In this document: positions 35,085 through 54,986 of the stretch, in pieces
How positions within the stretch are numbered: position 1 is the stretch's first letter
How the letters are laid out: each line of letters begins with the position of its first letter
Assembly (NCBI GenBank): GCA_017439675.1
Contig: JAFSIQ010000029.1
Span: 1-64,000 of the forward strand
DNA length: 64,000 nucleotides
Direction of reading: 5' to 3'
From: Lachnospiraceae bacterium
GTDB taxonomy: Bacteria > Bacillota > Clostridia > Lachnospirales > Lachnospiraceae
Program-made: the position numbers and the translations under genes
Notes under the pieces: model-generated
What the model was told of the DNA's origin: nothing
Databases searched by the model: none
Seen by the model: the letters and a program-made list of their open reading frames with translations, nothing else

Positions 35085-36500
35085 TCATTCCACCATACGC
35101 TCTTCCTGCAATTGCCCAAATTTATCATCAGCCTTAAAACTATCTAGATACTGCCAAAATTGTCCCTCGCTAGTCCGTTCCTTTGCCCCCACAATATAAA
35201 CCACATCTGGGTTTTGTGAGTTTTCCAAAATATAGAAGGACAAATACATCTGCGTACGGTCCAACGCACCACGACCATTCCATGTCACACGATATCCCTG
35301 ATTTCCATCCACTGTAGCCGTTTCGCTTTTCAACGTGCCTGACACGCCTAAGGTCTGTTCTAGCACGCTCAAAAATGCCCTTGCACCAAATTCTTTACTG
35401 TCACCCTGCAATTTTACATTAGACATATCGAAGTAATCTAACAAATTAAAATAGCCATAAGTCTCCTGCAAATTCGTTTCCATATATTCCACCGGATTGG
35501 TATCATAATCCTCACTTTTTTCTAGTCCAACCAATACCATTCCCTCAAAGAGTGCCGCCTCCTTCTCACCAACATCCTCAGAAGCAAAAAACTTCAAATC
35601 CGCTTTTGTCTGGAAATCGTCTGCAAGCTCATAATACCAAACACCTTTATATTCTCTAAATCCCTTTGGGATATTAATGTAGCCTGTGGTTTTAGAGCCC
35701 ACTCTGTCCTCCACTCCCACAAACTGCTTCGCCTGAGGTTCACCAGAAGACAGAGAAAATGTCTGCACATAATCCACACACTGTTCATAACCACTGGTAA
35801 AAGCTGCTGTCACACAATGAAAAACACCTTTTTGTTGCGGATTCTCAATAATATAAGTCTGATACTGATACTCCGTTTCTCCTCGGTTTCCTTTCCACTT
35901 CATACTCATCCCAGAAAGACCATTCACATCAACAAGCTCTCCTTCAACAAGCAATCCCTTCTCTCCCGCAGTCAAAAGCTCATTTTCCAAAAGACCGCTC
36001 CGAATGCCATCAAACACTTGGTCCATATCCAACTTGTTCCTCTTCTTACCATAAAGCTGACTGATGCCATCACCAAAACCAACGTAGTCTTCTCTACGTT
36101 TATCAGAGGTAACTAACGACATAATTATGTACATCGTTCCCTTCTCATTTTTTAGTTGAACCCCTTCTGCAATCCCATCTGCTCCTCCTGCATAATTGAC
36201 ATCTGCCGGATTAAATGAGCCCGTCACACCAAAGCCTTCTGGCACATCTATATAACCATAAATATTGTTGCCAACCCGCGGTGCATCATCCGAGAAATCC
36301 GTCACTGTATCATCAAAGCGGGATGAATGGACACTAATCACTCTAACTATCAAAAGGACTAACAGCACGCAAATCACAATCACAATCACTCTTGTAATTA
36401 ATCTTTGTTGTTTGAAGGCTTTCTCATCTGTATATACATTCTCTAAAAAATCTTCCATTTCATACTCTGTAACATTTTTCCGAACTGCATTTTGCTCCAT
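35085..36500 (-). CDS. Single-pass membrane protein with extracytoplasmic repeat domain, unknown family
   Basis: The roughly 471-aa protein has a 35-residue acidic cytoplasmic start, one transmembrane helix near residues 40-60 (VIVIVICVLLVLLIVRVI) and a large outer domain. The outer domain contains two related halves, each starting GY(I)(D/N)(V/I)P(E/K)GF (about residues 78 and 288) and each ending in a 'WxGxRG...Y..YIxEN' segment. AAGG lies ten bases before the ATG at 36500. It follows the anti-sigma gene by about 100 bp on the same strand and could be part of that regulon. Confidence 0.7.
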   Translation of the reverse strand: MEQNAVRKNVTEYEMEDFLENVYTDEKAFKQQRLITRVIVIVICVLLVLLIVRVISVHSSRFDDTVTDFSDDAPRVGNNIYGYIDVPEGFGVTGSFNPADVNYAGGADGIAEGVQLKNEKGTMYIIMSLVTSDKRREDYVGFGDGISQLYGKKRNKLDMDQVFDGIRSGLLENELLTAGEKGLLVEGELVDVNGLSGMSMKWKGNRGETEYQYQTYIIENPQQKGVFHCVTAAFTSGYEQCVDYVQTFSLSSGEPQAKQFVGVEDRVGSKTTGYINIPKGFREYKGVWYYELADDFQTKADLKFFASEDVGEKEAALFEGMVLVGLEKSEDYDTNPVEYMETNLQETYGYFNLLDYFDMSNVKLQGDSKEFGARAFLSVLEQTLGVSGTLKSETATVDGNQGYRVTWNGRGALDRTQMYLSFYILENSQNPDVVYIVGAKERTSEGQFWQYLDSFKADDKFGQLQEERMVE

Positions 36501-36599
36501 ATCATCTATACCTTCTCTACCCATAATATCTACTCTTCAACATCTGTCATCATTTCTATATATTTGTCAGTTCCATGCACACGGCGTTCCCTCTAATTC

Positions 36600-37202
36600 T
36601 CAATCCTCCGCATCCTTCTCCCAGAGAACATACAACACCTTACCATCCTTGTCGCAATAGGAAACCTTACTGAATGGTTCATCGCCAAACAAAGGCTTAT
36701 CCGGTGCAATTTGTGTGTAAGTCAGTGGCTCCGTCCAACCCATCCTGAATCTGCCAAATATATTTTCGCCTAGATATAGCTTTATCTCTCCATTCGCATT
36801 GTCATCAACAATCACAACATCGCCTCTACTAGCAAGGTTTTCACGGCGCAAGAACAATCCTTCCTCCATCTCTACCACTTGCAAGTCCTTCATCAAATCT
36901 GGTCCATAGTAAAACACCGGTAAAACCGTAAGGTCGCAGAACAAAAATGCACCATACAGCCCGAGCATCACTACCACAATCAAGATTGTTCGCATCAATA
37001 TTTTTTTACGAAGTTTTTTAAATGGATTAATATCCCTATCTTCCGCAATTGGCATACTTGTTTTCAATTTCTCTGCCACCGCTTTACACTCGGCACATGT
37101 TTCCATATGCTTCTCTAACATCATCTTACTATCTTCACTTAAAACATCATCAACATATAATGGTATTAAATCGTTTGCAACATTGCAGTTTACCTCTTTC
37201 AT
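36600..37202 (-). CDS. Zinc-finger anti-sigma factor (zf-HC2)
   Basis: The 200-aa membrane protein has an N-terminal anti-sigma zinc domain (NDLIPLYVDDVLSED, then HMETCAEC, the HxxxCxxC motif), one transmembrane helix (ILIVVVMLGLYGAFLF) and an extracytoplasmic domain. It should hold the adjacent ECF sigma factor inactive at the membrane until an envelope signal arrives. AAAGGAG is seven bases from the ATG at 37202. It starts 53 bp after the sigma gene. Confidence 0.88.
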   Translation of the reverse strand: MKEVNCNVANDLIPLYVDDVLSEDSKMMLEKHMETCAECKAVAEKLKTSMPIAEDRDINPFKKLRKKILMRTILIVVVMLGLYGAFLFCDLTVLPVFYYGPDLMKDLQVVEMEEGLFLRRENLASRGDVVIVDDNANGEIKLYLGENIFGRFRMGWTEPLTYTQIAPDKPLFGDEPFSKVSYCDKDGKVLYVLWEKDAED

Positions 37203-37255
37203 ACACATACTCCTTTCCACTATGTAATACTTTATCTTTGAATACAACAAATTTG

Positions 37256-37762
37256 CTATTTCTTCAAAGCATCTAGTATCTTTGCTTTTGCCCGGTAAAA
37301 TGTCACCCGTGCCCAGCTTTCCGTCTTACCATAAACTTCTGCTATTTTCTGATAGGAGACCTCATGTAGCACTTTCAACGAAAATACAGTTTTATACGGC
37401 TCCTCCATATTCTCTAAAATGTTTCGAATCTCCTCTGCTTCTTCCACAGCCTCAATTCGATTAATTGCAGGTTCCTCCATATCCGGAACATTGAGAAAAA
37501 CTTCTTCTTCCACAAACCCAGATACATTCCTTTTCTCCTTGCGCAAGTAATTAAAATAATCATTTTTCGCAATCTGACATAGCCAGACCCGAATGTCACA
37601 ATCCCCACGGAACTTGTGAGCTGCTTGTATCGCTTTGCAAAACGTATTCTGTGTGACCTCCTCAGCAATGTCCACATTACCGGCGAGAGAACGTGCGTAA
37701 CAAAATACATCCTTGTAATATCTTCTATAAATGATATCCATTTCCTTGTTAAATTGTTTCAC
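37256..37762 (-). CDS. ECF-type RNA polymerase sigma factor
   Basis: The 168-aa sigma-70 family protein has region 2 (YYKDVFCYARSLAGNVDIAEEVTQNTF and RVWLCQIAKNDYFNYLRKEKR) and region 4 (YKTVFSLKVLHEVSYQKIAEVYGKTESWARVTFYRAK). The start is GTG at 37762, spaced seven bases from AGGAGG and giving the usual ECF length. It pairs with the zf-HC2 anti-sigma factor downstream. A possible self-recognised promoter lies at 37779-37809. Confidence 0.92.
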   Translation of the reverse strand: MKQFNKEMDIIYRRYYKDVFCYARSLAGNVDIAEEVTQNTFCKAIQAAHKFRGDCDIRVWLCQIAKNDYFNYLRKEKRNVSGFVEEEVFLNVPDMEEPAINRIEAVEEAEEIRNILENMEEPYKTVFSLKVLHEVSYQKIAEVYGKTESWARVTFYRAKAKILDALKK

Positions 37763-37778
37763 CGTCTCACCTCCTACT

Positions 37779-37809
37779 AATACGACACACAAAATGATTC
37801 CCTGTTACA
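37779..37809 (-). promoter_or_regulatory. Possible ECF-type promoter of the sigma operon
   Basis: Read on the minus strand, TGTAAC (37804-37809) and CGTATT (37779-37784) resemble the AAC-type -35 and CGT-type -10 elements of ECF sigma factors. The 19-base spacing is longer than the usual 16-17, so this is tentative. Confidence 0.4.
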
Positions 37810-37849
37810 AATTTTTCGAAATTTCTCAAACATTTCTCAAACAAGCATG

Positions 37850-37910
37850 ACTCCACTTGGCTCATTGTCAACACAAAAGGAGCAAACACTTTACAAAAGT
37901 ATCTGCTCCT
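37850..37910 (-). terminator. Terminator of the REC-ComFB gene with conserved trailer
   Basis: On the minus strand AGGAGCAGATAC pairs imperfectly with GTGTTTGCTCCT (37878-37910), then TTTTGTGTTGACAATGAGCCAAG follows. The TTTTGTGT-NACA-ATGAGCCAAG trailer is shared with the terminators at 17951 and 56226. Confidence 0.75.
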
Positions 37911-37917
37911 CATTCCT

Positions 37918-38565
37918 CTAATTATGATTCGGTCTCTTCTTTACCACCTGCGCACAATATGCTATCTGTGTTAATATCTTCAACTTGGCTTCTCTGGATG
38001 CAACTTTCTCTGCCTTAGTAATAGCCGCTCCTCGTTCGCTAGTAACATACTTAGGCTCCAAATGATTCAGAGTCAAGCTTAACAAATCCCTACGGCAAAT
38101 CGGACAATCACACATCCCCAAGTCTCCAATATATTCATCAATCTCTGCCTGTAGTAAATCTTCCATTACATTGTGAACCTTTCGATTACTACCTACACAT
38201 AACAAATTCTGCACTCTCTTCCCCACAATGTCAAGGTTAAGCGGTTTCCCAATAATATCGTCCGCTCCCATCTTGAATGCGACCCCGATATCTTCTGATT
38301 TCTCTAAGTCAATTATTGTTAACACTGGTATGTTTTTGTGATTGGAATTATTCCCAACCCAATTGAGCAACGCAAATTCCGTCTTTCTTGAGATATCCAA
38401 ATCAACAATAATCAAATCAACACTACCCGCATTATCTTCAAAAAACATCAAACTTTCTTTCCCACTTTGAAGAGACATGCATTCATAATCTTTCTGTAAC
38501 AACGCGGTCAATGTTTCTTGAACTGCTGAATCAACATCCAGAAAAAGTATCGTCTTCTTACTCAT
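37918..38565 (-). CDS. Response regulator receiver fused to a ComFB domain
   Basis: The 215-aa protein has an intact receiver: acidic pair D10/D12, phospho-acceptor Asp55 (LIIVDLD) and Lys107 (GKPL). Residues 128-210 form a ComFB-type domain with the Cys motif CDCPIC (152-157) and LTLNHLEPKYVTS. ComFB domains occur in competence loci and some bind cyclic dinucleotides, so the fusion may join phosphorelay and second-messenger inputs; that is inference. There is no DNA-binding domain and no adjacent kinase. AGGA precedes the ATG at 38565. Confidence 0.8.
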   Translation of the reverse strand: MSKKTILFLDVDSAVQETLTALLQKDYECMSLQSGKESLMFFEDNAGSVDLIIVDLDISRKTEFALLNWVGNNSNHKNIPVLTIIDLEKSEDIGVAFKMGADDIIGKPLNLDIVGKRVQNLLCVGSNRKVHNVMEDLLQAEIDEYIGDLGMCDCPICRRDLLSLTLNHLEPKYVTSERGAAITKAEKVASREAKLKILTQIAYCAQVVKKRPNHN

Positions 38566-38641
38566 CCCAATCCTGTCCCCCTTTGTACATTGTCAGACAA
38601 AAATGTGCTGAAGATTACTCTTTTCTTCACCACATAGGTAT

Positions 38642-38670
38642 ATTCTAAAATATTATACAAAAAATGACAA
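38642..38670 (-). promoter_or_regulatory. Promoter of the REC-ComFB gene
   Basis: TTGTCA (38665-38670) and TAGAAT (38642-38647) on the minus strand are spaced by 17 bases, about 70 bp before the start. Confidence 0.6.
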
Positions 38671-38773
38671 GAATTTTATTCAAATTGTGCAATTATATTA
38701 TCGACACTTCTCAAATTCCAAACTTTTCGATATTTAATTCACCTATCCGACTAACCTTTAAGTCTCTCATTCC

Positions 38774-40771
38774 CTACATATCATAATCCCGCAGCGTAAT
38801 CTTCAACTCTTTCAAACGGTCACGATACTCTGCTGCCATCTCAAAGTTAAGCTCTGCCGCAGCCGTCTCCATCTTTTTAGTATATTTCTTAATCTCTGTC
38901 TGTAATTCCTTCTTGGTCATGGATTCAATATCCTTTTCCCGAAGTTTCGCATTCAATACATCAATATCCTCATCTGTGGATGTGGTGATCAAGTCACGAA
39001 CCGACTTCTGAATCGTAGTCGGAGTGATTCCATGCTCTTTGTTATAAGCATCCTGAATCTCTCGGCGGCGATTGGTTTCATCAATTGCAACTCTCATAGA
39101 CCGGGTAATCTCATCCGCATACATAATAACCCTACCTTCACTATTACGAGCAGCACGACCAATGGTCTGTACAAGGGAAGTTTCCGAGCGCAAGAATCCC
39201 TCCTTGTCTGCATCAAGAATCGCAACCAAGGTAATCTCTGGAATATCTAATCCCTCTCGAAGCAGATTAATCCCCACTAATACATCAAACACACCCATTC
39301 GTAAATCACGTACAATCTCAATTCGCTCTAAAGTATCGATATCCGAGTGTAGGTATTTCACCTTCACTCCTTGGTCACGAAGATAATCGGTCAAATCCTC
39401 CGCCATACGCTTTGTAAGGGTGGTGACCAATACCTTGTGTCCCTTCTCCACCTCCTTATTCACCTCAGAAAGCAAATCGTCCACCTGTCCCTCTACGGGT
39501 TTCACCTCAATCAATGGGTCTAACAAACCGGTTGGACGAATCAACTGTTCTGTCCGCATCAACTCATGCTCCGCCTCATAATCCGACGGTGTTGCCGACA
39601 CAAACATAACCTGGTCTAACTTCTCCTCAAACTCATCAAATCGAAGTGGGCGGTTATCCATCGCAGACGGCAAACGGAATCCAAAATCCACTAGCGTCTG
39701 TTTTCTAGAGCGGTCTCCAGCATACATTCCACGAATCTGCGGAACGGTAATATGGGACTCATCAATTATCATCAAGAAATCATCCTTGAAAAATTCCAAT
39801 AACGTATTCGGTGTAGCACCCGGCTCCAAGCCTGCCAGAGGTCTGGAATAGTTCTCAATACCAGAACAAAAACCTGTCTCTTTCAACATTTCCATATCAA
39901 AATGCGTCCGCTCACTAATGCGCTGTGCCTCAAGAAGCTTATCATTTTCCTTGAAGTAAGAAACCCTCTCTTCTAATTCCTGCTCTATCTCCTCTACGGC
40001 ACGCTCTATCTTATCCTGTGCCACTACATAATGGGACGCAGGAAAGATAAATGCACAGTTAATTCCTCTCTTCACTTCACCGGTCAGTGGGTCAAACTCC
40101 ACCATCCGGTCAATCTCATCTCCAAAGAACTCCACACGAATCGCATCCTCGAAGGTGGATACTGGAAGAATCTCCAACACATCCCCATGCACTCGGAAAG
40201 TTCCTCGCTTGAAATCCATCTCATTGCGTTCATACTGTATATCAATCAAATCCGTAATCAGCTTATCCCATTCGTAAGTAGCACCCACTCGTAAAGTTAA
40301 CATCATCTCCTCATAATCCTCTGGAGAACCAATACCATAAATGCAAGATACAGAGGAAATAACAATAACATCCTTCCGCTCAATCAATGCTGCCGTGGCA
40401 GAATGTCTCAACTTATCAATCTCATCATTCACAGAAGAATCCTTCTCGATGTAAGTATCCGTAGATGGTACATACGCTTCTGGCTGGTAGTAATCGTAAT
40501 AGGAAACGAAATACTCCACCGCATTCTCTGGGAAGAACTCCTTGAACTCACTATAGAGCTGTGCCGCTAACGTCTTATTATGTGCAATAATCAGAGTAGG
40601 CTTATTCAGTTTCTCAATAACATTCGCCATGGTGAACGTCTTACCAGAACCAGTAACACCAAGCAAGGTCTGAAATTGATTCCCCTCTTTAAACCCCCTC
40701 ACTAAATCTTCTATCGCCTGTGGCTGGTCACCAGTTGGCTTAAATTCTGAATGTAATACAAACTTATCCAT
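38774..40771 (-). CDS. uvrB: Excinuclease ABC subunit B
   Basis: The 665-aa helicase-like damage verifier of nucleotide excision repair has Walker A GVTGSGKT, the beta-hairpin region [19 protein letters not shown]-like DESH, the helicase VI motif QTIGRAARN, and the C-terminal UVR motif ([19 protein letters not shown]). GGAG lies six bases from the ATG at 40771. A consensus promoter with an overlapping LexA box makes it a likely SOS gene. uvrA lies 4.3 kb downstream, beyond non-repair genes. Confidence 0.97.
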
Positions 40772-40857
40772 CTCTTTCTCCACTTCAAATCAAAATTACT
40801 TCTCATAGTATATTCTTATTCAGCATTCCAATTCTCTTAATTCATCGAACAGTAATC

Positions 40858-40871
40858 CGAACACTTGTTCC
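40858..40871. promoter_or_regulatory. LexA (SOS) box of uvrB
   Basis: CGAACACTTGTTCC contains the perfect GAAC-N4-GTTC dyad of Gram-positive LexA sites (CGAACRNRYGTTYC), with one deviation. It lies just downstream of the -10, over the expected transcription start, so bound LexA would block initiation. Confidence 0.8.
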
Positions 40872-40872
40872 A

Positions 40873-40901
40873 AGTATATCACTGTTTATCTTCTCTTTCA
40901 A
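40873..40901 (-). promoter_or_regulatory. uvrB promoter
   Basis: TTGAAA (40896-40901) and TATACT (40873-40878) on the minus strand are spaced by 17 bases. Confidence 0.75.
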
Positions 40902-40922
40902 CTACTTTCAACCGCTTTCAAC
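40895..40922. repeat. Three CTTTCAAC copies at exact 10-bp spacing
   Basis: CTTTCAAC occurs at 40895, 40905 and 40915, i.e. once per helical turn, covering and extending upstream of the uvrB -35. It could be a phased binding site or a small replication-slippage repeat. Confidence 0.55.
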
Positions 40923-40970
40923 CGCAACTATGCGTTGCGCAATTTCCCTATGTTTGTAAATCTCAATACC

Positions 40971-40999
40971 TTGTCATTTCTATATTTGAGTGCTAAAAT
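40971..40999 (+). promoter_or_regulatory. Promoter of the C-type lectin-like gene
   Basis: TTGTCA (40971-40976) and TAAAAT (40994-40999) are spaced by 17 bases, about 50 bp before the start codon. Confidence 0.65.
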
Positions 41000-41051
41000 A
41001 ATCTCTACGTGACAAACATATCAAATATAGTTAATGCAAAGGAGTACACAA

Positions 41052-41774
41052 ATGTTCAAAAAATTCAGTAAACTTATCATTTTTTCGTTGCTAATGGTAT
41101 TCAGCATGAGTATCACATCCAATGCAACTAGTATCAAGGATTCCATCCCGGCAGACGCAGTACGCAATGGTAATCACTATTATTTAATAGTTGAAGAGCG
41201 AGGCATTACCTGGGAAGAGGCAAAAGCCCTGTGTGAAGCACAGAACGGTCACTTAGCAACCATCACATCAAAGAGTGAACAAAAGTTTATTAATAAGCTT
41301 AACAAAAATGAAACCCGTTTGTGGATTGGCGGTTACAGAGATGATAATGGCAAGTGGAAATGGGTCAGTGGTGAAAAGTGGAAATATACCAACTGGGGTG
41401 ACGGTGAACCTAACAACTCAAGCAATGTCGTATCCAACGAAAAATGTGTCGCTGTATGGCCACAACAATGGAACGACATGGCAAACACCAATACTGCCGA
41501 ACAATCCGGCTACATTTGCGAATGGGATTTAGGAACTCCTAAGAAGCCAACCATCACCAAGATTAACAAAAAGAAGAAAACTGTAAAGGGTAAAGCAGAA
41601 GTTGGCACTACCGTTTATGTTAAAATCGGAAAGAAAACATACAGTGCCAAGACTAACAACAAGGGCGTATTTACTGTAAAGTGTAAAACCCTCAAGAAGA
41701 ATGCTATCATCAAGGTATATGTAAAAAATGTAAATGACGGAAAGAGTAGCACCGTCACCAAAAAAGTAAAATAA
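41052..41774 (+). CDS. Secreted C-type lectin-like domain protein
   Basis: The 240-aa protein has a signal peptide (LIIFSLLMVFSMSI, cleavage near SNATS). A C-type lectin fold follows: NHYYLIVEERGITWEEAKALC, HLATITSKSEQ, LWIGGYRDDNGKWKW, EPNN, and WNDMA with the closing GYICEW. The EPN and WND motifs are those used for Ca-dependent sugar binding. The C-terminal 75 residues form a Big_6-like bacterial Ig domain (PTITKINKKKKTVKGKAEVGTTVYV). The ATG at 41052 has AAAGGAG upstream. It is monocistronic. Confidence 0.85.
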   Translation: MFKKFSKLIIFSLLMVFSMSITSNATSIKDSIPADAVRNGNHYYLIVEERGITWEEAKALCEAQNGHLATITSKSEQKFINKLNKNETRLWIGGYRDDNGKWKWVSGEKWKYTNWGDGEPNNSSNVVSNEKCVAVWPQQWNDMANTNTAEQSGYICEWDLGTPKKPTITKINKKKKTVKGKAEVGTTVYVKIGKKTYSAKTNNKGVFTVKCKTLKKNAIIKVYVKNVNDGKSSTVTKKVK

Positions 41775-41825
41775 TTACAATTGAAGTGCTCTTGCGAAAA
41801 TGCTTTTGCACTCCATCACACCAAG

Positions 41826-41865
41826 AAAGACTTTGATATCATCATATCTATCAAGGTCTTTTTTG
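41826..41865 (+). terminator. Terminator of the C-type lectin-like gene
   Basis: AAGACTTTGATA pairs with TATCAAGGTCTT, followed by TTTTG. Confidence 0.85.
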
Positions 41866-41936
41866 TATTTACTCTTTCTTATACCCATACTTCTCCTGTG
41901 AGTTTTTCACATCGCCATCTGTTTACATAATTTTCC

Positions 41937-41965
41937 TTTACGAAACCATTTTTTTGCGTTATAAT
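41937..41965 (+). promoter_or_regulatory. Promoter of the FliM-motif repeat protein gene
   Basis: TTTACG (41937-41942) and TATAAT (41960-41965) are spaced by 17 bases. The leader is about 170 nt long and holds an imperfect inverted repeat (TGTTGTGTT near 42007 and AACACAACA near 42055). Nothing else is evident in 41866-42145. Confidence 0.7.
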
Positions 41966-42145
41966 ATAAGAACTATTCCTTATTCTTAGGGCATTTGTTG
42001 TGTTGTTATCACTTCCAAAGCATCGTTGACATAACACATTTATAAGTCATTCTAACACAACATCTTGTGCAGAAAATAAGATTTTTACAAGGACGACCAC
42101 AATTTACAGAATATACAGGGGCGTTACTAGGCGGAGGTATCACTT

Positions 42146-43717
42146 ATGAACAAACAGGAAAACAAGTTGGCACTTTCGGTGCTAACCACATTAATTTCAG
42201 GAATTGCATTAATTTACACATTAATTATGTATCACAATATCATATTTGCCGTAATGGGCATGAGCTTATTGTTTTTGATATGTGCGTACATTTTAACCCA
42301 GAATATCATTTCCTTTACCCTAGCGAAGAACAAAATGATGAACAGCCAGTTAAAGGATTACATCAATGATATTTCTGAACAACTAGAAAACATGAGCGGT
42401 GCACAATCGCAGCTTGGAAAGGCTACTTTTCTCTACACCAAACAAGCAGCTCAAACCGTTGCCACCTTGGAGAACAATTACATGGAAAGTCAGGAAGCAC
42501 TTTACAAAAACCTCACTTCCATCTCCAACGCCCAGAACAAAGCAACTAAGTTAATGATTAAATATGATCAGAATAATACCACGAAAGTAATTTCCACCAT
42601 TAAGGAATTGAGAAACCAATTAAGCGATACTATGATTCAGGGATTTGACCAGATTCAGCCGAACAACGCAGAGGTAATTGGTGCCCTAGAAGATATTGTA
42701 ACCTATTTGAAATCTCAGCCAAATGTGCCTGACCAGACCTTGAGTTTACAACTTAACAATGTGGCACACGAATTACAGAACATTTCCAATAGCATGCAGC
42801 ATTTCCAAATGCCGGTGCAAAATGTTGTACAGGCTGCTCCGCTTCAGACCGCAACTCCAATTACAGAAACCTCTGCAGCTGAAACCATAGCTCCAACTGC
42901 AGAAACAACCTCGGTTGCAGAAACCGATTCCGTTGCAGATATAGCTACTGCACCGGTTGAAGAAAACATATCAGTTGATACAACTACCTCGGTAGTAGAC
43001 ACAACGCCTACTGTGTCAAATGATGACATCGCTGATTTATTTGCATCCATGGAAGAACCGACAGTTGAAGCAGAGGAAAACACATTAGCTGACGTTGCAG
43101 AACAACCAGCATTGGAAACACTCGTATCGGAAAAACCAGTTGCTGAAGAAGCAACGGTAGCACCAATTTCAGAAGACCCGAACAAGCAGTTATCCGCAGA
43201 TGAAATCGCTGCACTATTTGCCGCTGCAGAACCGACGCCAAAGAAGGAAGCGGAACTGGCACCAAGCGCAGAAGAAACGACCAAAGAAGAACCATTTACC
43301 CCTACCTTTACAGTGGTTGGTAAATCGGATGAATATATGGAAGAGCACAAAGAAGATGTAGTATCTGCTCCAACAATTAGCGATATGAGCGATGACCCGA
43401 ACAAGCAGTTGTCTGCGGACGAAATCGCTGCACTATTCGCTGCTGCAGACCCAGCACCAAAAAAAGCGGAAAAGCCAATTGTGGAAGAAATGAAAACTCC
43501 TACATTAGATGATCCAAACAAGCAACTTTCTGCTGACGAGATTGCAGCATTATTTGCCGCCGCAGAACCGGCTCCAAAGGCAGAGCCTTCCGAAGAGGAA
43601 ATGGCAATGGATGCTGCATTGGCCAATGCACAACCTAGCGTAGCTCCTATTTCAGACGACCCAAATAAGCAATTATCCGCAGATGAGATTGCGGCACTAT
43701 TTGCAAGTCTTGGATAA
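42146..43717 (+). CDS. Membrane-anchored coiled-coil protein with four FliM-like linear motifs
   Basis: The 523-aa protein has two N-terminal transmembrane helices (LALSVLTTLISGIALIYTLI and a second near residues 32-58), a coiled-coil of about 160 residues, and a long acidic Ala/Glu/Thr/Pro-rich tail. The tail carries four near-identical copies of DPNKQLSADEIAALFA starting at residues 344, 417, 456 and 505, the last at the C-terminus, plus a degenerate copy (SNDDIADLFASMEEP, about 291). LSxDEIxALF matches the N-terminal motif with which FliM and FliY bind CheY-P (LSQDEIDALL). GGAGG precedes the ATG. A scaffold for a CheY-like partner is inference. Confidence 0.8.
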   Translation: MNKQENKLALSVLTTLISGIALIYTLIMYHNIIFAVMGMSLLFLICAYILTQNIISFTLAKNKMMNSQLKDYINDISEQLENMSGAQSQLGKATFLYTKQAAQTVATLENNYMESQEALYKNLTSISNAQNKATKLMIKYDQNNTTKVISTIKELRNQLSDTMIQGFDQIQPNNAEVIGALEDIVTYLKSQPNVPDQTLSLQLNNVAHELQNISNSMQHFQMPVQNVVQAAPLQTATPITETSAAETIAPTAETTSVAETDSVADIATAPVEENISVDTTTSVVDTTPTVSNDDIADLFASMEEPTVEAEENTLADVAEQPALETLVSEKPVAEEATVAPISEDPNKQLSADEIAALFAAAEPTPKKEAELAPSAEETTKEEPFTPTFTVVGKSDEYMEEHKEDVVSAPTISDMSDDPNKQLSADEIAALFAAADPAPKKAEKPIVEEMKTPTLDDPNKQLSADEIAALFAAAEPAPKAEPSEEEMAMDAALANAQPSVAPISDDPNKQLSADEIAALFASLG

Positions 43718-43737
43718 TAATTTACTCAATACAAAAA

Positions 43738-43788
43738 CAAAACCCAGTGGTATACGAAATAACTTTCATATATCACTGGGTTTATTTT
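43738..43788 (+). terminator. Terminator between the motif-repeat gene and the convergent secreted protein
   Basis: AAACCCAGTG pairs with CACTGGGTTT, followed by ATTTTC. It lies between convergent genes and may work on both strands. Confidence 0.8.
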
Positions 43789-43825
43789 CGTTTTCTATAT
43801 GCTTAGCTTACAAGTCAAGATATTC

Positions 43826-45103
43826 CTACTTCTTATAGAATATATAACTAGAATAACACCTTGTAGGATAACTCGTTGCACCTGTCACCACAGTTGCCTT
43901 CTCATCCCCATAATTCTGATAGGTATAATCAAACAAGTAATTACCCTCTGCATCCTTATAGATTTTGTTAATCTTACAAAAAGCACCGGTATACTTATTT
44001 TTGTAATACACATATACATGAGTTGGCTTGTACAATGATGTAGACTTGTAACTATAGTTATCATTTGGCCTTTGACGAGTGTACATAGACTTATTCGCAC
44101 CAAATGTTACCTTCTTATTGTTTCCAACAATCTGATACTGCGCTTTACCCTGTGCATCATATGTAATAAGCATAATACTCTGGATTGCATAATTCTTGTC
44201 TGCCATTTTAACCTTCAACTTACCATTCTTACCAGTCAAAAATCTCTTATAGGTACTCGTATCGCTAGTTGAAGTGCTTGTACGCTTCTCTGTAAACACC
44301 TGCTTTGCGCTTCCCAACTGAACAGAGGAAATAACTTTATTGGTCTTAAACACCTTAACCGTCTGGGTTTCGGTTGTCTTAACTATGATTGGCTCGATAT
44401 ACAAATAATCCTTTCCATCTGCACCCTTCTTAATGGTTGCTGGACAATATCCACAGCCTGAGTAGAATGCGTACATTTTACCACTAACTGTGCCTACATA
44501 ATAGGTCTCTGATTCTGAATATCCATCGAACTCTCTTACAAGCTTTGTCTCAACATACTCTTCCCCAGGTACTTCCACATAACTCTTATTACCAGTCTCA
44601 TCTTCCGTTATCTGCATCAGCTTGTAATAATAGGTTCTCACACCGTTAATGCTCTCACTTCGGGAAAGCTCCATTTTGTAATAGTGAGAACCATCAAATG
44701 TATTAGAGTAGTCCACTGTAGTAAACTTATAGGTACCTGTCTTCTGGAATGTAAACACATAATTATATTTGCCTGTATAAGCCAACACATCACTTATAGA
44801 TACGCCTTCTGCATACGCATCACTATCCTTGAAAAACTTTGACTTATAGTAAGAATCATAATACTCATCCCATGAAGTACAATTTGCATGTACCTTCTTC
44901 TTCATTTTAGAAACACTCTTACCATTAATCTTAACATTATCACCAATCACTGTGACAGTTCCGCCCACATAACTTTGATGTTTGGCATCATCTACTTTTT
45001 TTCTGTTGACTGTCATCGCCTCTGCTGTCATACCTGACATCATCATCAAAAATGCCAACGCCAATGAGGCTAACAATGCTTTATATTTCATTAGACTCTT
45101 CAT
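43826..45103 (-). CDS. Secreted protein of unknown function, paralog of the next gene
   Basis: The 425-aa protein has a signal peptide (LLASLALAFLMMMS, cleavage near AEAMTV) and is Tyr/Lys/Ser-rich with no membrane anchor. A CGYC pair occurs in the middle. Its C-terminal third (GKLKVKMADKNYAIQSIMLI to THVYVYYKNKYTGAF) aligns by eye with that of the gene at 45121-46026, sharing the GKLKxxx, Y-x-I-x-x-I and VYYK(N/D)K pattern. AGGGGGT precedes the ATG. It begins 17 bp after its paralog and should be cotranscribed. Confidence 0.75.
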   Translation of the reverse strand: MKSLMKYKALLASLALAFLMMMSGMTAEAMTVNRKKVDDAKHQSYVGGTVTVIGDNVKINGKSVSKMKKKVHANCTSWDEYYDSYYKSKFFKDSDAYAEGVSISDVLAYTGKYNYVFTFQKTGTYKFTTVDYSNTFDGSHYYKMELSRSESINGVRTYYYKLMQITEDETGNKSYVEVPGEEYVETKLVREFDGYSESETYYVGTVSGKMYAFYSGCGYCPATIKKGADGKDYLYIEPIIVKTTETQTVKVFKTNKVISSVQLGSAKQVFTEKRTSTSTSDTSTYKRFLTGKNGKLKVKMADKNYAIQSIMLITYDAQGKAQYQIVGNNKKVTFGANKSMYTRQRPNDNYSYKSTSLYKPTHVYVYYKNKYTGAFCKINKIYKDAEGNYLFDYTYQNYGDEKATVVTGATSYPTRCYSSYIFYKK

Positions 45104-45120
45104 ATATTGTTACCCCCTTC

Positions 45121-46026
45121 TTAATATTGCCACAACGACAAATTGCTATAAGAACTCTTTGTGTAGCTGACAGACTTATCACCTGTAATCTTATTGACTT
45201 CAACACACTTAATTTCCTTACGTCCACGCTTGGTTGTAACAGAATATTTCACTGTATTACCATAGAATTTGTCCTTATAAGAGATATAAATGTATGTATA
45301 TTTCTTCTCTGAACGAGAACCATAACCACTTGCACTCTTTTGTGTATAATAATATGTCTTAGAAAGCGTCACATTACCACCATTCTTTATCTTCTTATAC
45401 ACAAGTTCTCCCTTATCATTGACATATGCTACAATAATCCCCGTAATCTTATACTGGCTATTCGGAGTAATCTTAAGCTTTCCAGAGGTTCCCTTCACCT
45501 TAGTGTTGGTCTTTGATGTTATTTTCTTAACTCCATTCGACATTGTGGTGGAGTTCTCCTTTACCACCTGGTTTCCAAATGTAGCCTTCTTAATAAGTGA
45601 GTCATTTGCAACCACCTGAACGGTCAATTTCTTGGTTGCCTTTACCTTACCGGTAGCATCTGTCACTGTAATAGTAAGCTTATAGGTTCCTGTCTTGGTA
45701 GTATAAAAGCTGATTGTAGAATAGGAATCACTAGCACCATTGATTTGAACATTGGTGACTGCTGCTGTCATTCCATTTTTCTTGTTAATCTTAATCTTCT
45801 TAACAGTATCTCCTTCACCATGCCTTACAGTAATAGTGTTGGTAAGTCCAACTACCACACGCTTCTTTGTACTGCTCTTGTAGTTCTCTTTCACATCATA
45901 GTAACCATCTACATACACTTCACCTGGTACATAGTCAGCCGCATTAACCGTTATTACATTGGCAAACAAAAAGCAAAATGCCAGCACAGTAAATACCGCT
46001 GAAATCATCTGTCTGAATCTCTTCAT
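45121..46026 (-). CDS. Secreted protein with a PKD/Ig-like domain, paralog of the 43826 gene
   Basis: The 301-aa protein has a signal peptide (FTVLAFCFLFANVITV, cleavage near VNAADY). A beta-sandwich segment of the bacterial Ig/PKD type follows (TISFYTTKTGTYKLTITVTDATGKVKATKKLTV). The C-terminal module (SGKLKITPNSQYKITGIIVA to YTYIYISYKDKFYGN) is shared with the gene downstream. GGAGG precedes the ATG, and a consensus promoter lies about 80 bp upstream. Function is unknown. Confidence 0.75.
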   Translation of the reverse strand: MKRFRQMISAVFTVLAFCFLFANVITVNAADYVPGEVYVDGYYDVKENYKSSTKKRVVVGLTNTITVRHGEGDTVKKIKINKKNGMTAAVTNVQINGASDSYSTISFYTTKTGTYKLTITVTDATGKVKATKKLTVQVVANDSLIKKATFGNQVVKENSTTMSNGVKKITSKTNTKVKGTSGKLKITPNSQYKITGIIVAYVNDKGELVYKKIKNGGNVTLSKTYYYTQKSASGYGSRSEKKYTYIYISYKDKFYGNTVKYSVTTKRGRKEIKCVEVNKITGDKSVSYTKSSYSNLSLWQY

Positions 46027-46104
46027 TCATTCATCCTCCTCTTTTTTGATGTATATACTTTGTGATTTCTCTTTAGACTTCACACGTAGTATATCTAATT
46101 TTCA

Positions 46105-46133
46105 ATTATACCCTTTTCCTACCATTTTCTCAA
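46105..46133 (-). promoter_or_regulatory. Promoter of the paralogous secreted protein operon
   Basis: TTGAGA (46128-46133) and TATAAT (46105-46110) on the minus strand are spaced by 17 bases. Confidence 0.7.
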
Positions 46134-46249
46134 GCAAATTAAGGTTGCAATAATCATTTTCTAGGTTACATTTTTCCTAACTTACTACACTTTCACAATC
46201 TTCTCACAAAGATAATTTCCATTTGCCGATTATGAAATTTCTTATAAAG

Positions 46250-46290
46250 CAAAAGGATTTCGACTGCATCAACGCAGACGAAACCCTTTC
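46250..46290 (-). terminator. Terminator of the FN3 protein gene
   Basis: AAAGGgTTTCGtCTGC pairs with GCAGtCGAAAtCCTTT on the minus strand, followed by TGCTTTAT; the stem is long with few mismatches. Confidence 0.8.
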
Positions 46291-46320
46291 ATAATCTTAT
46301 ACTCTATACCGTTATATTAT

Positions 46321-48927
46321 CTACTTCTTCACCTTTATGCTCTTCACAGCAGACGCCTTACCGGCAATATCCTCTCCCGCCTCACTTGCAGCAATCGGAA
46401 CTACCTTGTAGTAATATGTCTTTCCTGCGGAAAGCCCTGTATCCTTAAATGTAATAGAGGTAGTAACACCTACGCATACATACTTACCCTTCTTCTTGGT
46501 CGCGCGATATACTCTGTATGCAACAGCACCCTTTACCTTCTTCTTTAACTTAATGGTTACCGTTTTCTTTGCGGATGTTATAGACTTAATGGTTGGCTTT
46601 CCAGACGGAGCACTAACAAAAGAGTAATTTGCCTCACCGAGAGAAGAACATGTATAGCTAGAAGAGTAACTCTTCCACACTCTCTTTGTCTGTTTCACCA
46701 CATCAGTAGTCCCCGGTGTTGTTACCCATAGCTCGGTTGCACTGCCATAACTGTTCTGTGCTTCTTCATCTGACTTCCCATCATTCTTGTAATCCTGCCA
46801 TGTCTTTTCTTTGGCAGCATATGCAATTACATAATACTGATAGGTGATTCCCGGCTCAGCACCCTTGTAATAATCTGTCTTCTGGCTTACCTCAACCGGA
46901 GACATGGCATATCTTTCAATCTGCTTCATATTTGCCTGATCCCAGTAGCCACAATACTGAATACTTCCACCATAGATTTCACCAGCATAGTCAATAACAG
47001 AGGTGTCGGTGAACTCGCTTGTCGCATATTCATAATTCTGGTAATAATAAGTCTTTGTCTCATCCAGCTTCCAGTTACACATCGGTCTTGCCACCGTACC
47101 TGTCGTATCATTGTTAAATGCATCAACCGCCGCATTCCATGCAGCCACATCCACAGCCACTGGTTTCTTAGCACCTACATATTGTGTTACCTTACTGCCA
47201 TAAGTTTCATTTGTATAATATTCGTTATCATACTCATCGGCACTAGGATATGCTACTACATAACCATTCACATCCTTATTCTTAGCTATGCTCATAGCCG
47301 GCATACGATATACTTCATAATATGCTGCTCCTTCAACTGGGGTCCATGTTACCTGAATGCCATTTGCTACCTTCTTCGCCTTTACATTCTTTACAATACC
47401 TAGTGTGGCTATTGTGGTATATTCGTGACTCTCACCCACTGTAGCACCATTATCCTTGTAAGGATAGATGCGATAGGTTTCCGTCAAATCATACTTTCCT
47501 TCTGCATCTGCCTTAATATCACTAAGCTTCTTGGCTACAAACTTATATTTCGTAGCAGACGCACTAAGCTTTGTCACCTGCTCCCATGTATAAGATTGCG
47601 TTGCGGCATCAATTACCTTCTTCTCTACAATGTAGCCCTTTGCTCCATAGGATTTGTTCCACTCAACGGTCCGGTTACCGGTTGCATCTGTATATTCTGC
47701 AGTAATATTCATATCTCCAAAATAGAAAGATACACTCTTCGAATCATCTATCTGTACTTCTCCGCTGCTACCATCCTTTGGCAAAACAGCAACTACCATA
47801 TATTGGAATGCACAATCAACTGCCGTTTTCTTATCTGTATAACTCTTCTTTCCAGAGCCCAATGTCTTCAAAAGTTCCCATTTTCCAAAGCCATCACCGA
47901 CAACTCCACCCTTGGAATATGCGGTAAGGTCCGAATCTGCCATACGGCGGTATACCTTATACTGCTTTGCACCGGCAATCTTGTTCCAGGTCAACTTGAC
48001 ATTTTTCTTTCCCTGCACCGTAAGCTTTAGGTTCAATGCACTACCCCTGGTAGTACATTCATGCACGGTATATGGACCATAACTAATCTTTCCTGTTTTC
48101 TTATCCTTGTAATATACTCTTACCTTATAAGAATACTTTGTTTTAGACGTTAAATTCTTATCAGTATATACATTCTTTGTTGTAGTTTCAATCTTCTTGT
48201 AGGAATTGCCTTCCTTACGATAGATTTCATAACCAGTTCCCACACTCTTTGATAAATTCAACTGTACAGAAGTTGACTTTACAGCAGAAGACACACCTGG
48301 CTCATTGAGGTCCATCTTCAGTGTAAAGGAGCCCGCAGGCACAATGTAATCCGCCATATAAATGGTAGCAAGTGGAGCAGAGTTGTATTCACCAGTAACA
48401 TAACTATGGTACTCACATCTCGCCTCATACGATTCCTGCCACCATGAGTTTCGCAATCGAACATCACTATAAGTCTGCTTTAATTCTGCAAGCTTGGCCT
48501 CTACTGCCGCCTTGTATGCAACACCATCAAAGTAGTATATATCCACTTTGTAGGTTCCCGGTGCATAACTCTTTTCAATGTAAGTGCTTGTCTCAGTTCC
48601 ATCAATTACAAACTTGCCTTCCTCTGTATAAAACCACTGTTTTGTCGGCCCCTGATACGCCTTTGAAGAATCGAAGGTTTCATTTCGATAGGAACCTGAA
48701 AGGCTTTCTGTTTGATCATCCTTATACAGATTAAACATTACCTTCGCTCCATCCGGAAGTTTTGATGGTATTGTAAATGTCCACCCCTCCGTATGCTGTC
48801 CATAGGCCTTTGTGCTCTTAAGTGTTACCTTGGGTGCTTCTGCCCGCACTGGCGTTACTATACCAATTGCTAAAGCCATCACCGCAAAGGCCGCTATAAT
48901 ATGCTTCATCCATTGTCTTTTTCTCAT
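46321..48927 (-). CDS. Large secreted fibronectin type III repeat protein
   Basis: The 868-aa protein has a signal peptide (IIAAFAVMALAIGI, cleavage near VRAEAP) and an N-terminal domain of about 190 residues without a clear family. Several FN3-like domains follow, recognisable by the GxxIYRK/YRVYR strand and KT(Y/K)YYKV closing strand (for example KQYKVYRRM, YYEVYRMP, VAYRVYRAT, AGKTYYYKVVP). It ends in a basic tail (SAVKSIKVKK). No enzyme motif or sorting signal is visible. GGAGGAG precedes the ATG. A terminator follows and a palindromic element lies upstream. Confidence 0.82.
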   Translation of the reverse strand: MRKRQWMKHIIAAFAVMALAIGIVTPVRAEAPKVTLKSTKAYGQHTEGWTFTIPSKLPDGAKVMFNLYKDDQTESLSGSYRNETFDSSKAYQGPTKQWFYTEEGKFVIDGTETSTYIEKSYAPGTYKVDIYYFDGVAYKAAVEAKLAELKQTYSDVRLRNSWWQESYEARCEYHSYVTGEYNSAPLATIYMADYIVPAGSFTLKMDLNEPGVSSAVKSTSVQLNLSKSVGTGYEIYRKEGNSYKKIETTTKNVYTDKNLTSKTKYSYKVRVYYKDKKTGKISYGPYTVHECTTRGSALNLKLTVQGKKNVKLTWNKIAGAKQYKVYRRMADSDLTAYSKGGVVGDGFGKWELLKTLGSGKKSYTDKKTAVDCAFQYMVVAVLPKDGSSGEVQIDDSKSVSFYFGDMNITAEYTDATGNRTVEWNKSYGAKGYIVEKKVIDAATQSYTWEQVTKLSASATKYKFVAKKLSDIKADAEGKYDLTETYRIYPYKDNGATVGESHEYTTIATLGIVKNVKAKKVANGIQVTWTPVEGAAYYEVYRMPAMSIAKNKDVNGYVVAYPSADEYDNEYYTNETYGSKVTQYVGAKKPVAVDVAAWNAAVDAFNNDTTGTVARPMCNWKLDETKTYYYQNYEYATSEFTDTSVIDYAGEIYGGSIQYCGYWDQANMKQIERYAMSPVEVSQKTDYYKGAEPGITYQYYVIAYAAKEKTWQDYKNDGKSDEEAQNSYGSATELWVTTPGTTDVVKQTKRVWKSYSSSYTCSSLGEANYSFVSAPSGKPTIKSITSAKKTVTIKLKKKVKGAVAYRVYRATKKKGKYVCVGVTTSITFKDTGLSAGKTYYYKVVPIAASEAGEDIAGKASAVKSIKVKK

Positions 48928-48992
48928 ACACTTCTCCTCCTAATTTTTTATTTACTCATAAGCATTTACGAAACTCATAGGAAATATATTGA

Positions 48993-49184
48993 ATTGTACA
49001 GAATGAACAAATGCCATAAGTAGGTGCTTCGAAACCCGTCGGTACTTAACGAGAGATTTGTCTCGAATTTAGTACCACTACGCATTGAGGTGGCGAGATG
49101 CCTGAGACCCTAGCTTGCGTGCAAGCTTAGTTCGAAGGTATGCTTTAGCTATGTGCCTACGTTGGCTTGTTCAATCTGTACAAT
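48993..49184. mobile_element. 192-bp palindromic element with inverted termini (MITE-like)
   Basis: The ends ATTGTACAGAATGAACAA (48993-49010) and TTGTTCAATCTGTACAAT (49167-49184) are inverted repeats matching at 17 of 18 positions. Complementarity continues inward (GTAGGTGCTTCGAA near 49020 with TTCGAAGGTATGC and TGCCTAC near 49132-49160), and a smaller hairpin (AAGCTTGCACGCAAGCT region) lies inside. There is no coding frame. Obvious target-site duplications are not seen. It may instead be a transcribed structured spacer between the GH9 and FN3 genes. Confidence 0.6.
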
Positions 49185-49217
49185 GTTTAAAATATATATT
49201 AGAGTTTTGCAATTGCT

Positions 49218-52200
49218 TTACTTAACCTTTATCTTGATAGTCGCTTTCTTACCGCTTCCATCCTTTGCTTTGGCAGTAATCTTAACCGTTCCCTTCTTCT
49301 TGGCAGTCACCTTGCCCTTGGCATTGACAGTCGCCACCTTCTTGTTAGAGGTGGACCATGTAAGCTCCTTGCTAATTCCCTTAGCAGGGGTAAACTTCGC
49401 CTTGATGGTAACCGACTTACCCTTCTTCAAGGTAGTTGTCTTTGCTGACAACTTAATCTTCTTTACAGCATTTTTCATAATGGAAATCTTGTAGGTTGCC
49501 ACAATGCTGTTGTCTTCTTGTGAATATGCTGTTACAGTTACTTTCTTGCCCTTACCAGCCTTCTTGGTTGTCACAACACCCTTGCTGTTCACAGAGGCAT
49601 ACTTACTGTTGCTGACCTTCCACTCCACATTCTGGTTGGTTGCATTTTCCGGATACACCATAGCTGTAAGCTTAATTTTCTTGCCTGGAGCAACCTTCTT
49701 TGTATCACCAGTTATCTTAATCTGCTCCACTGCTATATCACCATTTACAACCGTGATTGTGCATGTAGCAGATACACCACTTCCATCATTTGCTGTTGCA
49801 GTAATAATCGCAGTTCCTTCAGCCACAGCTGTCACCGCTCCCTCGGCATCCACTGTTGCAACCGCAGTATTACTACTGCTCCATGTAACCGAGGCATCAT
49901 ATGCATTAGCCGGAAGCACGGTTTCTGCCAAGGCAACACCATCACCGACCTCCAAGGTTTCCGCTGTGCTATCCAATGTGATATGGGTAACCTTTATCTT
50001 TGTCACATTCACTGTAAATGTGACATCTCCCTTTACAGTATAGGAGATTCCTCCTTGATATAAGTTTCCGGTGGATTTCTCTTTCCATCTCACCACGCAA
50101 CCCTTTACATCCTCTAGCTCCGGAAGGACAATGGCACTTCCTGCATAACACTCCATAGAATCTATGGTTGTCGTTCCATCTTCTTCTAAGAATACAACAG
50201 TGTAGGTGGCAATAATATTGCCATTTTCATCCTTTGGCGTAGAGGAGTATAAGTTCTCCATACCGCCATCTGTAGTGATATTGTTCTCACCCTTCAAGAT
50301 AATGTTGTCTGACACAATCGCCTTATCCGTAGAGCCTGCTCCTGCATTTACCTTTACATCCGCATTTTCAATGGCAATGCCCTCAGTCGCTTCTATCGCT
50401 GCTGCGCCTGCTCCACCAGTTGCGATTACTTCACTACTAATAATTGTAATAGTATCTGCCTTCATCGCAGGATTTCCGCTATCTCCAGTAGCTGTCACTT
50501 TACTTTCTTCTATTACAATGCTACCCGCAGAAATCGCCGCTTTACCTGTTCCGGTTGCTTCTACCACAAGGGTAGGTCCATTGATTGTTATGGTTCCCTT
50601 TATCTCAATGTAATCCGCCTTAAGCGTTCCGTTACCTGTTATCTTCACATCTCCTGTTGTGCTTGACACAATGGATGAAACTGTAGAAGTTCCCACCACC
50701 TGAATGGTTGTGCTATCATTTGGCACACACACCTTAAGGTTTTCATTGATTCCTACAAGGGTGTATGTGGCATTGGCTGTTTGCAACGTCAACACATTAT
50801 CTGCATAAGCTACTGTCGGTTCGCTACTGCCGTTCACGCGAAGTGCGTCCACATAAGCATCCACTTCACTTCCGCTTAACTTCGACACATCAACGGTATA
50901 TGGATTTATCACAAGTGTATACACCTGCAATGGTGTAGAACATGTCGCACTTGCATACTGAGTTGTTGTCTCTTTGTATCTTGCATATATCTTGTAAGAT
51001 GTAAATGCCGACAAACCTGCAAAGGTTCCGGATGTCTGCCAGTTCACACCGTCCTTAGAATACTCCACACCATTTATTTCATTCACTGTGATGCGATTGG
51101 CTGTACGGCTTGCAAGCACTGGAGTTGCAGGGACATTAGCGTTGGTCTGCTTGTTGACCTTGATGGTTACCATCTCTTTCGATGTCATCTCATCATCCTC
51201 TAGACCATATTGTGTTTTACTTGCATCACTCCATGTGAAGATTACATACTTCTGTATCGTACCAATTTCACTTTCTGTCGGTACATAATCTGCATTCTCC
51301 CAAGTAAAGGTTCCGTAATCCTCGGCTGGATATGTATCATTTCCAATCTTTACCTGTCCTCCCACAAACGAAGACTCCTTTAATGCCTGTCCATATGTAA
51401 TGTCGGTTGCTGTTGGAAAAACAACTTCCAAGCCTTCACGATTTACATTAATCGAAACTTCTCTTGTAATTGTTCCTGTACTGCTATTATATCCATCAAT
51501 ACTTGTGAAAGAATAATTCTTAATCGCATTGTCACTCAATGTTAATACCACATCATAGGATGAGGTTCCTCTAGACGGTGCCATACTAGAATTCTTCCAT
51601 GCAAAGCTACCATATTCTGTACTACCACCGGTTAAAACCGAATCTGCCAAGGTCTGACCTACCGTTAGTGCTGCGGCTGTTGGGAAGTTCACTTGACTTA
51701 CCGCCTTTGGATGGATTGTCAATGTTCCGTTCTGTGTGGTTATCTCGTAATTCGCATTACTTGTAACTGTCAAGCTAATCGGATATGTACCTGCATCTGA
51801 TAATGTAGTCGCTGTTGTAGTCACTTGATAACTCAATGTATCGCCTACCACAAGACTATCCTCATATGAGGAATCCACCGACAATGTAGGAACCGCCTCA
51901 CCATATGTCATTTCTGCATCATTCGCCTTCACCACAATTGGCTTCTTGGTTACTGTCACAGAAACTGGAATCGTCAGTGTCTTGCCACTATAAGCAATAA
52001 TCACTTTGTCTGTATAGGTTCCTGCCGCTAATCCCGTCTTTGGCTTCACCGATATCGTTGATGCCCCCGTCGGACTAATGCTAACCCCCGTCGGCATGCT
52101 CACAATTTCAAAATACATGCCAGATTCAAGTGAAGTATTGCTTGGTGTTGTAGCAACACCGCCCACATTGATCACGCTTGCTGAAGCTGTATAAACGGAT

Positions 52201-54974: not shown

Positions 54975-54986
54975 CATTTCCTCCCT

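Follow-up and report, generated by a model that had tools for sequence, protein, structure and literature searches.

A putative membrane-anchored array of CheY-docking peptides in the Lachnospiraceae

Introduction

The window, which is the whole stretch of 64,000 nucleotides of Lachnospiraceae DNA analysed here, contains a gene for a membrane protein of 523 amino acids (P0001) whose tail carries four identical copies of a short motif resembling the N-terminal peptide of FliM and FliY. Judged from its sequence, P0001 probably serves, anchored in the membrane, as a multivalent dock for CheY, the response regulator of chemotaxis. CheY~P is normally pictured as a freely diffusing messenger, and the motor offers it one docking peptide per subunit. 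In the mechanism that we propose, two N-terminal transmembrane helices would anchor the protein, and its tail, presumably disordered, would extend into the cytoplasm. There every LSADEIAALF motif would form a helix that binds the CheY surface used by the N-termini of FliM and FliY, with a preference for phosphorylated CheY. With four or more sites per tail, CheY~P would be concentrated at the membrane and might be buffered there or passed to the motor switch, to the CheV/receptor array or to a phosphatase. If this is true, local CheY~P and its free fraction would become a tunable and inherited property through membrane proteins that bear as many as a dozen docks, and a large bacterial family would possess a chemotaxis component to which neither the Pfam nor the NCBIfam scan of P0001 gives a name. 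Such arrays are described in none of the titles and abstract openings of the CheY-binding literature among the matches listed, and the motif letters, used as a literature query, matched no chemotaxis paper in titles or abstract openings. A CheY dock had been proposed in a first-pass annotation of the same DNA, and the present analysis supports that interpretation in part.

Anatomy of the array protein

The array gene is encoded on the + strand (42146..43717), with an ATG at 42146 and a stop codon that ends at 43717. A Shine-Dalgarno sequence, GGAGG, precedes it (42133..42137, +). Behind the gene is an inverted repeat, AAACCCAGTG...CACTGGGTTT (43740..43783, no strand assigned), that by eye is perhaps a terminator. 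Hydropathy places two putative transmembrane segments at residues 7-30 and 31-60 (42164..42325, +), in agreement with the earlier description of P0001 as a membrane protein. Two N-terminal hydrophobic segments are present in 41 of 43 family proteins, P0001 included, and the other two have one long segment; in none of the 43 does hydropathy detect a segment starting past residue 160. The short start is positively charged and is followed by two crossings, so that by the positive-inside rule the long C-terminal part most likely lies in the cytoplasm.

Residues 62-230 look helical by eye and perhaps form a coiled coil (42329..42835, +), with K92, Q130, K135 and N144 as conserved residues. Across the 43 family proteins the helical part conserves a Gln in 36, a Lys in 37, a Glu in 35 and an Asn in 31. 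A catalytic site in this region was considered and set aside: the polar residues are conserved, but they form no recognised motif. The tail (residues 230-523) looks disordered and consists to 79% of A, E, P, T, V, S, D and K, which bears out the Ala/Glu/Pro-rich spacers noted earlier. It contains the motif DPNKQLSADEIAALFA at residues 344-359 (43175..43222, +), 417-432 (43394..43441, +), 456-471 (43511..43558, +) and 505-520 (43658..43705, +), the last copy ending three residues before the C-terminus. A weak fifth copy, VSNDDIADLF, starts at residue 290 (43013..43042, +). The first-pass annotation had reported four copies and a weak fifth, and the sequence confirms all five.

No FliM middle, CheC or FliN domain is found among the P0001 matches up to E 1, and P0001 has no match to a CheW or receiver domain. 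Prok_Ub (PF14454) scores 28.5, above its cut-off of 25, yet only residues 453-475 align, to profile positions 15-37. These 23 residues correspond to one motif copy, the whole domain comprises 64 profile positions, and the match was rejected.

The repeated motif is not a product of chance

Any two of the four copies in P0001 are separated by 6-12 substitutions in 48 bases, all of them synonymous, and each copy encodes the same 16 residues. Thus the protein motif has been kept, not just the DNA, and recent DNA duplication is rejected as the sole cause of the repeats. Chance or low complexity was evaluated with the core pattern [LM][ST]x[DE]EIxx[LM][FL]. Among 200,000 shuffles of the tail, three contained one match and none contained two or more. 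The background set was 245,209 amino acids of ORFs from the window and from loci L049-L080 and L286-L325, from which the proteins recognised by an array pattern had been removed, and the core pattern occurs in it five times: in two FliY N-termini, twice in L076, an array protein that had escaped this filter, and once as an apparent chance match. The shuffles, the background count and the synonymous-only differences together rule out chance or low complexity as the origin of the motif.

Relation to the docking peptide of FliM and FliY

A conserved EIDALL motif in the N-termini of FliM and FliY is bound by CheY-P, and helices alpha4 and alpha5 of CheY form the groove that receives the FliM peptide (PMC9126983, excerpt). 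We compared 38 FliM-FliY regions, 20 from array-bearing genomes and 18 from genomes without arrays. Their N-termini mostly read LSQxEI[DN]xLL (pattern absent in L218, FliM only in L194). The bridge to the arrays comes from FliY: in one array-bearing genome (G252) this protein begins MSDVLSEEEIAALFAQSN (core also given as LSEEEIAALFAQ), which is the array form, and in two further genomes (G034 and G049) FliY has LSQEEINALF. The array motif shares the core L-S-x-x-E-I-x-x-L-[LF] with the FliM/FliY peptide and differs from it in its DPN prefix and in a Phe for Leu; the Gln and the Asp/Asn that are usual in FliM and FliY (LSQxEI[DN]) are replaced in arrays by Ala/Pro and, after the Ile, mostly by Ala. 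In the N-termini compared, the FliM/FliY peptide is single and N-terminal, whereas the array places several copies on a membrane protein.

A score matrix was derived from the N-termini of the 38 regions and of two loci of the same genus, with AALF and NALF members omitted. With this FliM/FliY-only matrix P0001 scores 12.0 bits, and the highest score among 811 reversed ORFs is 9.7. The forward ORFs above 9.7 bits number 34, of which by our count 25 are array proteins, 5 are FliM or FliY and 4 are others, one of these four lying elsewhere in the window. The score matrix and the bridging FliY both place the LSxxEIxxL[LF] helix core in the P0001 motif. In a default hmmsearch with a FliM/FliY N-terminal profile, P0001 is not among the 60 best of the 811 ORFs. 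Three further settings, all without composition correction, were tried after the default had failed: one with a softened profile ranks P0001 14th (E 1.4e-5), and the top 25 listed for each of the other two do not include it. The FliM/FliY likeness asserted in the first-pass annotation is sustained by the bridging sequences and the score matrix, but not by the default profile search. Outside the array, the best FliM-like match of the window in the score matrix is W_26, an ORF of 347 amino acids, at 16.1 bits.

Flagellar genes were described earlier as missing from the window, and none is seen among the ORFs listed for 36000-50000; the same genome encodes FliM, FliY and CheY on another contig (C44), where cheY lies directly behind fliM and fliY and CheA follows at a distance of some 12 kb. 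Compared with Thermotoga CheY, this CheY gives a match of E 4e-51, also to the entry 4iga, which contains a FliM peptide, and so the FliM-type docking surface is very likely present on it.

Distribution across genomes

A BLAST search with P0001 gave hits in 31 of the 299 Lachnospiraceae genomes sampled, all 31 with FliM and 30 with CheA. In these genomes 30 of 32 ORFs contain the motif as recognised by a search pattern, in 110 copies (103 full length, 67 distinct) whose consensus is DPN[KHAR]x[LM][ST][AP][DE][ED]IAA[LM]FA. A motif profile built from 44 peptides, 43 of them among the 67 distinct copies, was then run on the 299 family genomes. It matches 88 genomes at E<=0.1, 61 at E<=1e-3 and 57 at E<=1e-4, with up to 13 motif matches per genome. 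Co-occurrence was scored on FliM and on the CheA dimerisation domain in the 299 genomes, and CheY was scored in the genome of the window. The first-pass annotation had named homologs in genomes without CheY or flagella as evidence against its proposal, and on this scoring the proposal was not refuted: at E<=1e-4 FliM accompanies the motif in 57 of 57 genomes (153 of 299 overall) and CheA in 56 of 57, and none of the 299 is a FliM-negative genome with the motif. The one motif genome without a CheA match (G168) has a FliM match that ends at a contig end. As a control, the weaker matches (E 1e-3 to 0.1) come from genomes of which 9 of 27 are FliM-positive, and such matches therefore behave as noise. 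Two FliM-negative matches, in G152 (E 1.5e-4) and G175 (E 9.1e-4), cover only profile positions 1-13 and 3-13, fall beyond the E<=1e-4 count and by eye belong to proteins of another kind; they were discarded.

The arrays are not universal among flagellated relatives, as 96 of the 153 FliM-positive genomes remain unmatched at E<=1e-4. Across the phylum 378 genomes were drawn, of which three matched at E<=1e-3, all of them Lachnospiraceae, and the nearest named related loci are two from Lachnospiraceae and one from a Eubacteriales assembly. The naive hypergeometric P for co-occurrence with FliM is about 5e-20 with relatedness ignored. An rpoB tree was made from 60 genomes picked by class, of which 58 gave usable rows; n043 was dropped as aberrant, leaving 57 genomes, of which 20 bear arrays, 20 have FliM without arrays and 17 lack both. 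Arrays and FliM are both scattered on this tree, requiring 12 and 8 changes, respectively. Well-supported branches provide six independent pairs that differ in FliM, and the array differs in the same direction in three of them on average and in the opposite direction in none. The relatedness-corrected test has a median p of 0.25, with a consistent direction and too little power, and the naive P is therefore not to be taken at face value.

Five protein contexts of the motif

The protein behind the match was inspected in all 57 genomes. In 56 it lies outside FliM and FliY, and in one (G107) it is FliY. Sorted by eye, the 56 comprise 42 members of the window's family, 12 members of a second family and two singletons. 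The window's family has two transmembrane segments, the helical part and the tail, and two members that lack the N-terminal part (L055 and L124) were assigned to it by tail and neighbours. The last motif stands at the C-terminus in 44 of 45 proteins (21 of 21 and 23 of 24), and several members, e.g., L052, L077, L078 and L079, have a single terminal copy. In the exception, L123, the array gene reaches the end of its contig, and its last residues look like adapter or otherwise foreign sequence. A 1659-aa array protein of G236 (L032/L062) has DPN-type copies together with a repeated LPQEEMDALLENAD that is nearer the FliM form.

In the second family an N-terminal EEYLDxLL-like stretch precedes the array, which is followed by a Lys-rich stretch and by what looks, by eye, like a single transmembrane segment. 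Its gene lies within four genes of cheV in all 10 loci that have upstream sequence (3 of 13 lacked it) and adjoins what we take to be hisH-hisF-ung in 10 of 13. The two singletons (L066 and L075) are unlike proteins with no Pfam match above cut-off. The fifth context is FliY itself. In G195 (L142) three tandem copies of MSQEEIEALL occupy an internal linker before the last domain, and in G107 (L138) one LSPEEIAALV does so; with starts as called, neither FliY has the motif at its N-terminus. The G107 match (E 1e-5) is counted in the 57, and the G195 match (E 5.4e-4) is not.

We also entertain a broader reading, which is possible although we would not yet rely on it. The family may have invented an extra layer of chemotaxis control, made of membrane proteins with one to a dozen CheY~P docks each, in which the number of copies determines the amount of CheY~P retained. 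The motif would then be a module that passed into four or more unlike proteins and that multiplied inside FliY in one lineage. As part of the same tentative picture, CheY~P might be held near the membrane, at the receptor array (beside CheV) or at the motor.

Gene neighbourhood

Neighbours within four genes were recorded for 41 loci of the window's family, many of them cut by contig ends. A D-Ala-D-Ala carboxypeptidase is present in 21 of the 41, TrmB in 16, DUF3881 in 15, DUF4446 in 13, ParB in 7 and UvrB in 4, the window among the last; the names TrmB, UvrB and ParB, like hisH, hisF and ung above, are presumed from sequence. DUF3881 is found in 68 of 80 genomes queried (50 FliM-negative, and 30 FliM-positive without arrays), and the region behind it was searched for the membrane part of P0001 in 20 FliM-negative and 20 FliM-positive genomes (2 and 5 regions cut short). 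The search covered these DUF3881 regions. A relative of the N-terminal part occurs in none of the 20 FliM-negative regions and in 3 of the 20 FliM-positive ones; the three relatives (L312, L315 and L317) have no motif tail. A sigma-28-like promoter, sought with a crude pattern and automatic starts, precedes 0 of 55 array genes and 22 of 701 others.

Alternative explanations

Several known chemotaxis proteins resemble P0001 in part, and they suggest other readings of it. CheV, which combines a CheW domain with a receiver in the one locus whose domains were scanned, is the gene neighbour of the second array family, and P0001 matches neither of these domains. The motif may conceivably dock a receiver other than the motor CheY, for instance the CheV receiver or another single-domain CheY whose gene adjoins that of a CheX-domain protein, although we consider this unlikely. 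The genome of the window does encode such a second receiver (120 aa) adjoining a CheX-domain protein, the array motif departs from FliM at two positions, and because of the cheV neighbourhood the receiver of CheV remains a candidate partner. On the other side, a FliY N-terminus with the very form of the arrays exists, and cheV is near none of the 41 loci of the window's family, many of which are cut by contig ends. CheZ has a C-terminal CheY-binding peptide on a helical dimer, and P0001 is like it in having a helical part, a flexible linker and a peptide at the extreme C-terminus. A membrane-bound, CheZ-like phosphatase, whose C-terminal peptide would hold CheY~P while the helical domain gives the catalytic residue, would suit both the terminal motif, kept even in single-copy members, and the conserved Gln, Lys, Glu and Asn. 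We find it improbable all the same: P0001 has a membrane anchor and several copies, neither CheZ nor any other phosphatase family is among its matches up to E 1, no DxxxQ motif is seen by eye, residue 143 is Asn and not Glu, and the genome already has a FliY with CheC domains in addition to the CheX-domain protein. ChePep of Helicobacter and Campylobacter, compared by description only, is likewise a clade-restricted accessory chemotaxis protein, and it is reported to matter for the polar localisation of CheZ (PMC11237671, excerpt).

The motif may also bind a non-receiver protein of the flagellum, such as a part of the C-ring, the stator or the export apparatus, so that the array protein would mark or place flagella. 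The co-occurrence with FliM is as tight as that with CheA and so cannot separate a flagellar from a chemotaxis partner, and the frequent carboxypeptidase and occasional ParB neighbours would fit such a role. The partner named for EIDALL in the excerpt of PMC9126983 is CheY-P, however, and we give this reading little chance. That the resemblance to FliM arose by convergence, in a cell-envelope scaffold unrelated to chemotaxis, seems to us barely credible. The default profile search misses P0001 and the relatedness-corrected test by itself is not significant, yet the motif occurs in five protein contexts that include FliY and is absent, at E<=1e-4, from every FliM-negative genome among the 299. 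A multivalent dock for CheY at the membrane is the reading that we prefer.

Other genes near the array

Three other genes of the window deserve mention. A fusion of receiver and ComFB domains (37918-38565, -) lies 3.6 kb from the array gene, and in L123 a protein two genes from the array weakly matches it (26% over 122 aa); given this short span, the match probably concerns the receiver part. Upstream of the array gene is a protein with a C-type lectin domain and a bacterial Ig domain (41034-41774, +). A protein of 1919 amino acids (49218-54977, -) starts with a signal-like sequence and seems, by eye, to combine parts that resemble glycosidases and Ig domains; a gene of similar appearance lies near the array gene of G188.
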